Positions 57,811-61,831 of a stretch of 64,000 nucleotides of DNA are shown piece after piece. The notes beneath the pieces are model-generated. The model saw nothing but the letters and a program-made list of their open reading frames with translations. It was not told the DNA's origin and ran no database searches. Source of the stretch: Flavobacteriaceae bacterium (GTDB taxonomy: Bacteria > Bacteroidota > Bacteroidia > Flavobacteriales > Flavobacteriaceae); assembly GCA_029243385.1 (NCBI GenBank), contig JAQWSC010000014.1:1-64000 (forward strand). The letters are read 5' to 3'. Made by a program: the position numbers and the translations under genes. How positions within the stretch are numbered: position 1 is the first letter of the stretch; every line of letters starts with the position of its first letter.

Positions 57811-57873
57811 TTGTTAAAAAACTAATAATATTTTTTTTTATTTTTTTATTTTTTGGTTCAATATTTAAAAATT

Positions 57874-58224
57874 ATGAAAAAAATAACTGGTGTCATTCGG
57901 AAATCAAAATACAAATCAGTAAAAAAGGAACTTAGTGATCTCGGAATTAATTTTTTTTTTAATTCTGATCTTAACTGCGATTGTAATATTCCCGAATCGT
58001 ATACTTTAAAAGGGATGCTTTTCCCTACTTTGGAGCACGTAAGATGTTCGTTCTATGTTGTTGTTCCCGACACATTGGAATATCAAACAATCCAAACCAT
58101 TCTACAAACTTGCTATACCAAAGATTTTGGAGATGGAATGATTTTTGTATCCGATATAAACGAGTCTTACAGAATAGATGATCAACAATTAGGTGAACAA
58201 GCGTTAGATTTTAACACTATTTAA
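57874..58224 (+). CDS. Divergent P-II-like protein with a cysteine-bearing T-loop
   Basis: This 116-residue protein starts MKKITGVIRKSKYKSVKKEL and ends with the P-II signature FGDGMIFVSDINESYRI, so the ferredoxin-like P-II fold is clear. The T-loop between residues 30 and 58 lacks the YRG/uridylylation tyrosine pattern and instead carries a CxC pair (Cys35, Cys37) and Cys58. Nitrogen signalling is therefore doubtful, and metal or thiol sensing is possible. The ATG at 57874 is preferred to the TTG seven codons upstream. Confidence 0.82.
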   Translation: MKKITGVIRKSKYKSVKKELSDLGINFFFNSDLNCDCNIPESYTLKGMLFPTLEHVRCSFYVVVPDTLEYQTIQTILQTCYTKDFGDGMIFVSDINESYRIDDQQLGEQALDFNTI

Positions 58225-58258: not shown

Positions 58259-58266
58259 TAAATTTG
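58259..58266 (+). promoter_or_regulatory. -7 element of the copper-set promoter
   Basis: TAAATTTG lies 13 nt before the ATG at 58280. There is no convincing -33, which may indicate an activator-dependent promoter. Confidence 0.45.
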
Positions 58267-58279
58267 CATTGTTTTGAAA

Positions 58280-58681
58280 ATGCTTTATAAGACCATATTG
58301 TCGATTGTACTGGCCTTTTTGGTAGTCTTTTCCTCTTCCTCATTTGTAGTAAGCCAACATTACTGCGGATCGAGACTTGTTGATGTTACGGTCTTTGGAA
58401 ATCCAGAAAAATGTTTTTCAGCTGCGGTTACATCGGAAAATATAACTTGTATTCAAGCCAATAGTTGCTGTAACGACGTCCTTATAAGCGTTCCTAGCAA
58501 CGATCTAGTCTCTATTTCTTTCGATGTTGACATAGACTCATTGATATTTGATGTCAATTCTATTTTAATTTCTGCACATATAGAGACATATGCTGACTCC
58601 AAATCGGTTACTTTTAATCATTACAAACCGCCTAAATTAATTCAAGACATACCTGTTTTTTACGAAGTTTATTTAATTTGA
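58280..58681 (+). CDS. HYC_CC_PP-type exported protein
   Basis: This 133-residue protein has a signal peptide (about 1-25, cleavage near VVSQ). Immediately after come His27-Tyr28-Cys29 (HYCGS), Cys45, Cys57, the vicinal pair Cys63-Cys64 (NSCCND) and, near the end, a YKPP motif. This is the pattern that gives the HYC_CC_PP family its name. The family is found beside TonB receptors in Bacteroidota and is thought to handle copper or another soft metal. The gene is followed at 85 nt by such a receptor. Confidence 0.82.
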   Translation: MLYKTILSIVLAFLVVFSSSSFVVSQHYCGSRLVDVTVFGNPEKCFSAAVTSENITCIQANSCCNDVLISVPSNDLVSISFDVDIDSLIFDVNSILISAHIETYADSKSVTFNHYKPPKLIQDIPVFYEVYLI

Positions 58682-58766
58682 TTTTTACGAATTTGATGTT
58701 TCCTTTTTCTTAAGGACTGGAAACTGTTGCCTTAAATTTTAAAAACAATTCAATAAAATCGTAAAA

Positions 58767-60998
58767 ATGAAATACTCATATTTATTCCTTTTTTTATCCT
58801 TATCACTGAACGTAACAGCCCAAAATGTTTTTGAAGGCCAGGTTCACTTTTTCGATGACAACAAAAACAAACAACCTTTAGAGGGTGCTACTGTTTATTG
58901 GGACAACTCTTCTATAGGTACAGTCACTGACAAGTCTGGTAAATTTAGTTTACCCGTAAGTGAAAAATTCAAAATATTGGTAATCAGTTATTTGGGATTT
59001 GACACCTTAAAACAACACATACATAACTATGACAATCAACAGTTTTTATTGACTTCAAATACTGATGAGCAATTGGATGAAGTCGTAGTCTCGAAACAAA
59101 AAAAAACCATTCAAAAGTCTTATTTTGAAGCACAAAACATTGTTACCGTTAATAGTGCCGAGCTTTTAAAGGCTGCTTGTTGCAATCTCTCAGAAAGTTT
59201 TGAAACCAACCCTTCTATAGATGTAAACTTTTCAGACGCTTTGACTGGCACTAAACAAATAAAAATGCTTGGACTGTCTAGTCCTTATTTATTAATTACA
59301 GAAGAAAACATTCCAATGATTCGTGGGGCATCACAAGCATACGGCCTCACTTTTACACCCGGAACTTGGGTTGAAAGTATTCAAATTACCAAAGGAACGG
59401 GTAGTGTGGTTAATGGATTTGAAAGCATGGCGGGTCAAATCAATGCCGAAATTCACAAACCTTTGAGCCAGCCTACTTTGTTTGTGAATGTGTATTCATC
59501 GGTTGATGGTAGAAACGAATTAAATACTCATTTTACTCAAAAAATTTCTGATAAATGGAGCACAGCATTGTTTGTTCATGGCAATCAACGTACTCAAAAG
59601 AATGATAAAAATAATGACAACTTTTCAGACAATCCATTGTCAAAACAAATCAACCTTTTGAATCGATGGCAATATATAGATGCTGAAAAAGGCTGGGTAG
59701 GGTTTGCAAACATTCGCTATATGGACGATCACAAACAGCTGGGTAGTTTAAATTTTGACCCTTCTATTCACAAAAACTCTCAATTGTTCTGGGGAAGTGA
59801 AATCGATACTAGACGTTGGGATTCTTCGCTAAAAATTGGATATGTTTTTCCTGAATTGCCTTATCAAAGCCTGGGTCTTCAAATGTCATACAGTCAACAC
59901 GATCAACAATCGTATTTTGGACTGAATACTTATGACATCAATCATCAGAGTTTTTACGCTAGTTTTTTGTTTAATTCTATTATTGGTAGTGTTAAAAGTA
60001 AATTCAAAGCGGGTGTTAATTTTATGCATGATACTTACGATGAACAAGTTGTATTAGACTCATACAAAAGGACTGATTATTCCTTGGGTGGGTATTTTGA
60101 ATACAGTTATGATAATTTGGATAATTTTAGCTTAGTTGCTGGTATTCGCGCCGATTCTCACAATACACTGGGTGTTTTTTTAACACCAAGACTTCACGCA
60201 CGATATGTGGTGGCTGAAAAAAATATTTTTCGTGGATCAGTAGGAAGTGGAAGAAGAATCGCTAATATTTTTGCAGAAAACCAACCGCTGTTTGCTACTA
60301 GTAGAACTATTAATATCAATAGCCAAAGTGATGGCGTTTTTGGTTTGAATTCCGAAAAATCCTGGAATTACGGACTTAGCTACCGTCGTATTTTTAATTT
60401 GTTTTCAAGACCTGGAGACCTTACTGTTGATTATTACGAAACTCACTTTCAAAATCAAGTAGTGGTTGATTGGGATAATTACAGAGAAATATCATTTTAT
60501 AATTTGGATGGAAAAAGTTATTCGAAAAGTTTTCAGGTTTCCTTAGATTATGAACTATGGAATAATTTAGACCTGCGATTGGCTTACAAGAATTATGACG
60601 TAAAAACTCAGTACAACGACAGTTTTAAGCAACGCCCATTGCTTGCTAAAAACCGTTTGTTTGGAAATTTGTCGTATGAAACTTATCCTAATGACAACAA
60701 TGCTTTGTGGCGCTTTGATACAACCTATCACCAGGTTGGTAAGCAGCGCTTGCCCAATACTGTAATTTATAATAATGAGTTTTCTGATTCCTTTTCTCTT
60801 TGGAACGCACAAATTACAAGAGTGTTTTCCAATCGGTTTGAAATTTATGTAGGAGGAGAAAACTTAGGTAATTATAGGCAACCTCAGGCTATTATTGATT
60901 CTGACAACCCATTTGGTCCTAATTTTGACAGCTCAATAGTTTATGGTCCAATTTTTGGGAGAAAACTTTACGCTGGACTTCGATATACAATCTTATAA
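58767..60998 (+). CDS. TonB-dependent outer-membrane receptor, probable copper uptake
   Basis: This 743-residue receptor has a signal peptide (1-18, ...NVTAQ), a carboxypeptidase-regulatory-like N-terminal domain (20-98, LEGATVYWDNSSIGTVTDKSG), a plug (about 110-235) and a beta-barrel ending in aromatic GLRYTIL. A vicinal pair Cys138-Cys139 (LLKAACCNLSESF) sits near the plug start. Cysteines are rare in such receptors, and neighbours with CC and HMA motifs support copper as substrate. A canonical TonB-box match is not obvious. Confidence 0.9.
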   Translation: MKYSYLFLFLSLSLNVTAQNVFEGQVHFFDDNKNKQPLEGATVYWDNSSIGTVTDKSGKFSLPVSEKFKILVISYLGFDTLKQHIHNYDNQQFLLTSNTDEQLDEVVVSKQKKTIQKSYFEAQNIVTVNSAELLKAACCNLSESFETNPSIDVNFSDALTGTKQIKMLGLSSPYLLITEENIPMIRGASQAYGLTFTPGTWVESIQITKGTGSVVNGFESMAGQINAEIHKPLSQPTLFVNVYSSVDGRNELNTHFTQKISDKWSTALFVHGNQRTQKNDKNNDNFSDNPLSKQINLLNRWQYIDAEKGWVGFANIRYMDDHKQLGSLNFDPSIHKNSQLFWGSEIDTRRWDSSLKIGYVFPELPYQSLGLQMSYSQHDQQSYFGLNTYDINHQSFYASFLFNSIIGSVKSKFKAGVNFMHDTYDEQVVLDSYKRTDYSLGGYFEYSYDNLDNFSLVAGIRADSHNTLGVFLTPRLHARYVVAEKNIFRGSVGSGRRIANIFAENQPLFATSRTININSQSDGVFGLNSEKSWNYGLSYRRIFNLFSRPGDLTVDYYETHFQNQVVVDWDNYREISFYNLDGKSYSKSFQVSLDYELWNNLDLRLAYKNYDVKTQYNDSFKQRPLLAKNRLFGNLSYETYPNDNNALWRFDTTYHQVGKQRLPNTVIYNNEFSDSFSLWNAQITRVFSNRFEIYVGGENLGNYRQPQAIIDSDNPFGPNFDSSIVYGPIFGRKLYAGLRYTIL

Positions 60999-61015
60999 AC
61001 ACAACATCTTAATAT

Positions 61016-61375
61016 ATGATAATCATGAATAAATTAATAATTGTAATAATTTGCTTGTTTTCTTTTGCCTGCTTTTCTCAAGAAAAAAAGAGCAAATCAG
61101 AAAAAACTTCTATTTACGTAAGTGGAAATTGCGAACATTGCCAAATGCGAATCACAAAAACTGCACTCTCTCAAAAAGGTGTTAAATATGCCACATGGGA
61201 TATACCTTCAAATCAATTGACATTGATATACAACGCTCGTAAAGTGGACTTGTTAGACATCCAAAAAGCCATTGCAGCCTCTGGACATGACACTGATAAG
61301 TTTAAAGCCTCTAATCAAGTCTATGAGGAGTTGCCAGGATGCTGTAAGTACGATAGGCAAGCGGAAGAAAAGTAG
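61016..61375 (+). CDS. Heavy-metal-associated (HMA) domain protein, exported
   Basis: This protein of about 116-119 residues has a signal peptide (LIIVIICLFSFACFSQ) and an HMA fold. The metal-site CxxC is in VSGNCEHCQMRI (Cys36, Cys39 from MNKL). The C-terminal tail adds a vicinal pair (PGCCKYD, Cys106-Cys107). It is likely a periplasmic copper chaperone for the metal brought in by the upstream receptor, 17 nt away. Starts at 61016 or 61025 are both possible. Confidence 0.9.
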   Translation: MIIMNKLIIVIICLFSFACFSQEKKSKSEKTSIYVSGNCEHCQMRITKTALSQKGVKYATWDIPSNQLTLIYNARKVDLLDIQKAIAASGHDTDKFKASNQVYEELPGCCKYDRQAEEK

Positions 61376-61382
61376 TGCCTGA

Positions 61383-61562
61383 TTATTTTTTTATTAAGGC
61401 GCGAAAAAACACACAACTTATTACAAATGCAACAATTCCTGAAATTGTAAGTTGAATTGTAGGGTCGTTAACTACTTCCAAACTGCATAACGAAAAATAA
61501 AAAATAAAGTAAAGTGCTACAAAAACCAACAGGGATAATAACACTACGTCAAATTTTTTCAT
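61383..61562 (-). CDS. 59-residue membrane protein
   Basis: This short minus-strand gene encodes MKKFDVVLLSLLVFVALYF... ending ALIKK, with two hydrophobic helices (about 5-27 and 38-56) around a short polar loop (EVVNDPTIQ). No family is recognised. An exact 7-3-7 palindrome lies 10 nt upstream of the ATG. It is convergent with the HMA gene, with only 7 nt between the stop codons. Confidence 0.6.
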   Translation of the reverse strand: MKKFDVVLLSLLVFVALYFIFYFSLCSLEVVNDPTIQLTISGIVAFVISCVFFRALIKK

Positions 61563-61571
61563 AATATAAAA

Positions 61572-61739: not shown

Positions 61740-61746
61740 TCTTAAG

Positions 61747-61831
61747 CGGAGAAAGAGGGATTCGAACCCCCGGAGGTGTGACCCTCAACAGTTTTCAAGA
61801 CTGCCGCATTCGACCACTCTGCCATTTCTCC
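61747..61831 (-). tRNA. tRNA-Ser (anticodon TGA)
   Basis: The 85-nt class II tRNA has acceptor GGAGAAA/TTTCTCC, anticodon loop CTTGAAA (anticodon TGA), a long variable arm (about 15 nt, TGAGGGTCACACCTC) and T-arm GGGGG TTCGAAT CCCTC. The discriminator is G. Confidence 0.96.

Follow-up and report, generated by a model that had tools for sequence, protein, structure and literature searches.

Three consecutive genes for predicted exported proteins each encode a Cys-Cys pair

The window, that is, the whole 64,000-nucleotide stretch of DNA analyzed here, is part of a 1.69 Mb genome assembly (G000; 15 contigs, 99% complete). It contains three co-oriented genes on the plus strand, which encode a HYC_CC_PP family protein, a TonB-dependent receptor, and an HMA-domain protein; the intergenic distances are roughly 85 and 17 bases. 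The first gene (58280..58681; an in-frame TTG at 58274 is a possible alternative start to the ATG at 58280) encodes a protein with a hydrophobic N-terminus that is a full match to NF047658 (77 bits, cut-off 28) and in which the HYC, CC, and PP columns are conserved; the NCBIfam entry gives no function for this family. Its conserved residues are H27, C29, C45, C63-C64 (codons at 58466..58471, plus strand), and P117-P118. C29, C63, and C64 are the sole invariant columns among 62 HYC proteins compared, a result that is partly circular because this set was gathered with a cysteine-rewarding profile.

The second gene (58767..60998, plus strand) encodes the TonB-dependent receptor, which scores over the cut-offs for PF13715 and PF07715 (CarbopepD_reg_2, 58; Plug PF07715, 29.4 with a cut-off of 23.9) and is composed of a signal peptide (assigned by eye), a carboxypeptidase-regulatory-like domain, a plug, and a beta-barrel. 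The protein has only two cysteines, 138 and 139 (codons at 59178..59183, plus strand), which belong to an AACCNLSESFE motif where the plug starts. About 30 residues ahead of this pair, the stretch LDEVVV (residues 103-108; 59073..59090, plus strand), in which L103 and E105 are conserved, was recognized by eye as resembling a TonB box; the receptor is putatively TonB-coupled. The third gene (61016..61375, plus strand) encodes the HMA-domain protein (PF00403, 29.4 bits, cut-off 24.8), which has a signal peptide (by eye), a CxxC motif formed by Cys39 and Cys42 (61130..61141, plus strand), and the C-terminal sequence LPGCCKY with Cys109-Cys110 (61340..61345, plus strand). These four cysteines are invariant in 58 HMA proteins, again a profile-gathered and, therefore, partly circular set.

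A preliminary description of this DNA had reported one CC pair in each of these three consecutive genes, and we verified all positions in the sequence; its numbering of the HMA pair as Cys106-Cys107 is correct when counted from the second ATG and corresponds to 109-110 from the first start. The reported pattern exceeds chance by a wide margin; outside the cassette, 26 of 876 conserved neighbor genes encode a CC pair.

The plug Cys-Cys pair is fixed in a clade of Bacteroidota receptors

We generated a receptor profile from 29 receptors adjoining HYC genes (set A1) and searched 296 genomes of the Bacteroidota phylum, scoring no more than three candidates in each genome, which means that paralogues can be missed. 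The scores were bimodal with, by our own count of the list, 77 rows at or above 516 bits and 71 rows at or below 390 bits, and we defined membership of the subfamily as at least 500 bits. The loci of all 77 subfamily receptors, one of which (in G146) is interrupted by a stop, and of 44 of the 71 sister receptors were inspected. ACC is present at the plug position in 77/77 subfamily receptors and in 0/44 examined sisters; one sister (L330) is gapped at this position, and the sole CC of another (L294) is at residue 9. In a tree of 76 CC receptors and 44 others calculated with the motif columns removed, the pair corresponds to a single change (SH-aLRT 100). Besides the pair, no cysteine, no methionine, and only one histidine, H271, is conserved in at least 90% of 76 receptors. 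Counted after residue 25, 47 of the 68 unfused receptors contain just two cysteines, and the other 21 contain at least three. Eighty named loci (L171-L250) had been retrieved by patterns containing ACC, and their CC was excluded as evidence; the receptor set is much less circular than the HYC and HMA sets.

It had been suggested as a check that CC might be conserved only when the HYC and HMA genes are adjacent. This is not the case: CC is fixed throughout the clade, including 8/77 loci without a profile match to either partner, seven of which have another small CC protein upstream. A dependence of the receptor pair on its neighbors is not demonstrable in this sample, in which all 77 members of the subfamily have CC. 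In four receptors (L276, L277, L280, and L281), the motif reads ACCDL[AS]GCF and supplies a third plug cysteine; at these loci, HMA is replaced by a CxxC-less HMA-like protein (L277, L280), by a YHS-domain protein (L276), or by neither.

The model of the barrel superimposes on BtuB (2guf) with a Z-score of 22.1 and an rmsd of 3.2 over 465 aligned residues and, together with the Plug score, assigns the protein to the TonB-dependent receptor fold with its plug domain and 22-strand barrel. The plug was modeled poorly (pLDDT below 50 over most of its length), and the CC pair was not placed in the predicted plug. In a profile alignment to RagA, the pair falls beside the residues preceding the first RagA plug helix, and we suggest that it is periplasmic, close to the TonB-box side where the plug begins. 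A sequence search of solved structures returned only SusC/RagA-type receptors and one receptor N-terminal domain, mostly via the carboxypeptidase-like domain.

HMA proteins neighbor the receptor or are fused to it

The HYC and HMA families had been described as co-occurring with such receptors. By profile, 60/77 receptor loci have a co-oriented HYC gene upstream, and HMA is adjacent or fused in 56/77, with nine fusions and 21/77 loci without an adjacent HMA gene. All adjacent HMA proteins scoring above 80 bits have the arrangement CxxC...CC (131/131, both locus sets pooled; partly circular because such proteins had been used to build the profile). The nine fusions (L100, L125, L254, L259, L261, L262, L264, L265, and L267) encode HMA ahead of the receptor within a single frame. 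Five of these nine were scored by Pfam, with HMA over the cut-off in L261, where two HMA stretches were scored, and in L267, and just below it in L125, L100, and L254. Based on cysteine spacing, six fusions (L259, L261, L262, L264, L265, and L267) have two CxxC...CC units ahead of the plug CC. Because an N-terminal domain of such a receptor is periplasmic, the fused HMA must be in the periplasm, where it adjoins the inner side of the plug, and this fits a hand-over at that site.

CopZ-like HMA chaperones and CusF-type periplasmic carriers have roles in copper handling. The HMA protein has in common with CopZ-like chaperones the HMA fold with CxxC and differs from them by its signal peptide and C-terminal CC; all three CopZ models matched it below their cut-offs (NF033795, 29.2 versus 91 bits; NF033794, 21.8 versus 95; NF047957, 17.1 versus 85). 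The HYC protein can be likened to CusF-type carriers as a small exported candidate copper carrier adjoining a transporter, and no relation was found in any family search made.

An HMA-MauE membrane protein with an invariant CACLG is encoded in 27 receptor cassettes (for example, L202:12621-13334) and in the window's own genome (G000:C3:240513-241208), and it is a possible inner-membrane partner. We rejected it as a fourth regular member because it is present in 18/296 genomes, 8/77 with the receptor versus 10/219 without (p 0.09). The window's genome also encodes a second, small exported HMA protein (G000:C6; L001:1348-1824), which starts like a lipoprotein and has several CC pairs in its tail.

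The HYC_CC_PP protein occurs in two genomic settings

Among the 17 receptor loci without a HYC profile match, 14 have another small, apparently exported CC protein upstream (criteria: hydrophobic start, four or more cysteines, a CC, and a position within 900 bases upstream of the receptor), and L251, L263, and L270 have none. Several of these 14 proteins have PP-containing tails, and from their sequences they look like diverged HYC counterparts. By the same HYC/small-CC criteria, 2/44 sister loci scored, one of them (L254) owing to an adjoining CC receptor. At the level of genomes, HYC is present in 54/77 with the receptor versus 37/219 without (Fisher p 2.9e-17).

To describe HYC away from the receptor, 100 HYC loci were fetched, 34 with the receptor and 66 that are receptor-free by construction. 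An RND permease cluster is present in 49 of these 66 (representative over the CusA/CzcA cut-off), a TolC-like gene in 47 (representative below the cut-offs), an adaptor in 37 (representative cut by the end of the locus and below the cut-offs), and a P-type ATPase cluster in 12 (representative over the Cu-type cut-off). Genes of the CusA/CzcA, CusB-like, and multicopper oxidase kinds are found around HYC away from the receptor. Judged by its gene neighborhoods, HYC is of the copper type and belongs to two settings: the receptor cassette on the one hand and CusA/CzcA-type efflux loci on the other. Because HYC away from the receptor lies mostly beside CusA/CzcA-type efflux genes, HYC alone is not a marker of import. 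HYC-HMA(CC) pairs are present in 12/66 receptor-free loci, and the pair can, therefore, work otherwise; in L111, such a pair adjoins an unrelated CC-less receptor. The structure prediction for HYC (pTM 0.36) was excluded from structure searches.

In the window, a TAnnTTTG box (58259..58266, plus strand), which we take to be a Bacteroidota-type -7 promoter element, lies 13 bases ahead of the HYC ATG. The same box is found just upstream of HYC in 83/100 receptor-linked loci (shuffled sequences: mean 6.5, maximum 13). Because the box precedes HYC in these loci and in the window, HYC is probably the first gene of the transcript, which would be nearly leaderless. TTTG at the distance expected for a -33 element was found in only 9/100 loci, and no regulator site was found at the cassette.

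The window's genome has cytochrome oxidase genes and no recognized copper exporter

A search for P-type ATPase domains of any kind found none in the window's 99%-complete genome (control positive in 14/14). The genome encodes one full-length RND permease, the best match of which is of the multidrug type and which is below the CusA/CzcA cut-off, and two further partial RND matches of unassigned type. COX1 and COX2 are both present. Because the cassette is kept where copper exporters are not recognized and cytochrome oxidase is present, this context favors import over resistance. Elsewhere, Cu-type P-ATPases (TIGR01511 over the cut-off) occur in some clusters (L065, L071), and the recurrent neighbors of the receptor include none specific for Hg, Ni, or Zn. 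Co-occurrence of receptor and oxidase was also considered and rejected as a link: COX1 is present in 76/77 genomes with the receptor (the one without it being G238) versus 205/219 without (p 0.13), and with COX1 in 281/296 genomes this comparison has low power. In plasmids, 4/72,556 records have a receptor match, and all four are called non-mobilizable.

The receptor differs from known outer-membrane copper importers

According to the excerpted text of PMC12914433, the established outer-membrane copper importers OprC, CrtA, and MbnT are proteobacterial. The receptor resembles OprC/NosA in its TonB-dependent receptor fold; 6z8q and 6fok, with Z-scores of 19.6 and 19.2, are two of the many receptors that it matches. 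In the excerpted description of OprC, copper is bound by a plug CxxxM and a barrel HxM, including a plug cysteine, about 70 residues past the Ton box, and the authors regard the metal's path into the periplasm as unclear (PMC8610252). Unlike OprC, the window's receptor lacks both a CxxxM (its only cysteines are 138 and 139, with Ser and Glu at 142 and 143) and a conserved methionine, and its CC comes about 30 residues past the TonB-box-like stretch. CrtA/BfrG, as described in the excerpted part of PMC12914433, has no conserved cysteine or methionine, occurs mostly in beta- and gamma-proteobacteria, and has a PepSY_TM neighbor in >75% of loci, and its copper import is proposed to be linked to respiratory oxidases. 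Our receptor is, like CrtA, a TonB-dependent receptor with a proposed link from import to oxidase; unlike CrtA by that partial description, it is CC-fixed (77/77) and has HYC and HMA rather than PepSY_TM as neighbors. A flavobacterial OprC-like receptor with CxxxM-HxM, G2EC70 of Bizionia argentinensis, is encoded near CcoG and has been proposed to take up copper (PMC11213822). G2EC70, too, is a flavobacterial TonB-dependent receptor, but a receptor-HYC-HMA cassette is not mentioned in the excerpted text of that paper. In the open-licence literature, we found no paper on HYC_CC_PP, the plug motif, or the cassette. We conclude from sequence features that the receptor falls under neither the OprC nor the CrtA definition and would be a distinct class of TonB-dependent importer with its own thiol partners.

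A candidate copper import pathway and alternative explanations

The three-gene cassette, present in many Bacteroidota, probably brings copper through the outer membrane and looks widespread but unstudied. The genes, motifs, conservation, gene order, fusions, and genome context are read directly from the DNA; copper as the metal, its Cu(I) state, the direction of transport, the order of transfer, and the periplasmic site of the pair are what we infer. The reading that we somewhat favor is a dedicated Bacteroidota system for import of a soft metal, most likely copper, in which the receptor pair passes the metal to HMA and HYC serves as a carrier. Specifically, the receptor would take up copper, free or chelated, from outside, and its sole fixed cysteines, paired at the start of the plug, would form the exit site. 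When TonB pulls on the plug, the pair would give Cu(I) to the CxxC and C-terminal CC of the periplasmic HMA protein. HYC, as a small cysteine protein that is exported or anchored in the periplasm, may be a general copper carrier or buffer, and this proposed role would explain its presence in CusA/CzcA-type efflux operons. The metal would then move onward to cuproenzymes such as cytochrome oxidase. Several observations weigh against this reading: the receptor does not track COX1, 21/77 receptors have no adjoining HMA gene, the ACCDL[AS]GCF variants have other partners, and HYC-HMA pairs also exist in receptor-free loci, in L111 beside an unrelated receptor. More tentatively, we propose a thiol relay inside a TonB-dependent importer, in which the plug pair holds Cu(I) and hands it to the CxxC and CC of HMA, in some species within one polypeptide with two HMA-CC units and the plug pair, while HYC is a shared carrier linking import and CusA-type efflux. 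The stepwise relay of the preliminary description thus stands in part: the conserved three-protein unit, the absence of the pair in 44 sisters, and HMA fused at the receptor N-terminus in 9/77 loci argue for it, whereas the receptor CC turned out to be independent of its neighbors and HYC does not mark import.

HMA domains and cysteine pairs bind several soft metals, and the cargo might be silver, mercury, gold, zinc, or nickel, a metal complex, or an organic copper chelate, with the pair not being a Cu(I) site. The sub-threshold CopZ matches, a weak match to MerTP, and the lack of a methionine track as in OprC, CC and H271 being the only Cys, Met, or His positions with at least 90% conservation, are consistent with this. 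Against it, some clusters contain Cu-type P-ATPases, HYC elsewhere is accompanied by genes of the CusA/CzcA, CusB-like, and multicopper oxidase kinds, and none specific for Hg, Ni, or Zn recurs beside the receptor. We regard a different cargo as unlikely. It is also conceivable, though we rate it as distinctly improbable, that the pairs have a redox or structural role: the plug CC would form a vicinal disulfide for gating or folding of the receptor, and HYC and HMA would keep it reduced, with no metal relay. The plug pair always consists of two residues in the same place beside the first helix of the plug, and HMA-MauE, MauE being a redox-associated family, accompanies 27 cassettes; however, HMA CxxC domains belong to metal-binding families and not to oxidoreductases, and HMA-MauE is rare.

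The explanation to which we give least credence is copper resistance, with the proteins capturing or sensing excess copper and the receptor being a bystander or carrying a binding protein. The location of HYC within efflux operons in most receptor-free loci points in this direction. Against it, the TonB-dependent fold is that of importers, the cassette is retained in the window's genome, which has neither P-type ATPases nor a recognized CusA-type pump, and the few plasmid matches are all on non-mobilizable records.

Little is known about how bacteria acquire copper across their outer membrane. The receptor of the cassette would represent a distinct class in Bacteroidota, present in 77/296 sampled genomes. 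Under the import reading, it offers a hypothesis for the periplasmic step, which the excerpted text of PMC8610252 leaves open even for OprC. The natural HMA-receptor fusions make hand-over directly testable in one protein, and HYC_CC_PP, a named family without a function, gains a testable role.

Genes flanking the cassette

Upstream of the cassette in the window, genes for an Rrf2-type regulator and then a PII-like protein, which has a CDC motif and scores 34 bits for PF00543 (57388-58224), run divergently to the cysH, cysD, and cysN-type genes of sulfur assimilation. We considered the PII-like gene (57853-58224) as a member of the cassette and rejected it: it is in none of the other loci compared, and its sole match is in the window's own genome. 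L246 and L247 have Rrf2 and cysH neighbors in common with the window. In many flavobacterial loci, HYC is immediately preceded on its strand by two genes for small membrane proteins that have no Pfam match (L243:8280-8879 and L222:9028-9453; 46 loci each); to us, these genes look like the exosortase-F type. On the other side of the cassette, a possible small membrane protein is encoded on the minus strand right after HMA (61380-61563), and a tRNA-Ser lies beyond it, also on the minus strand (61746-61831).
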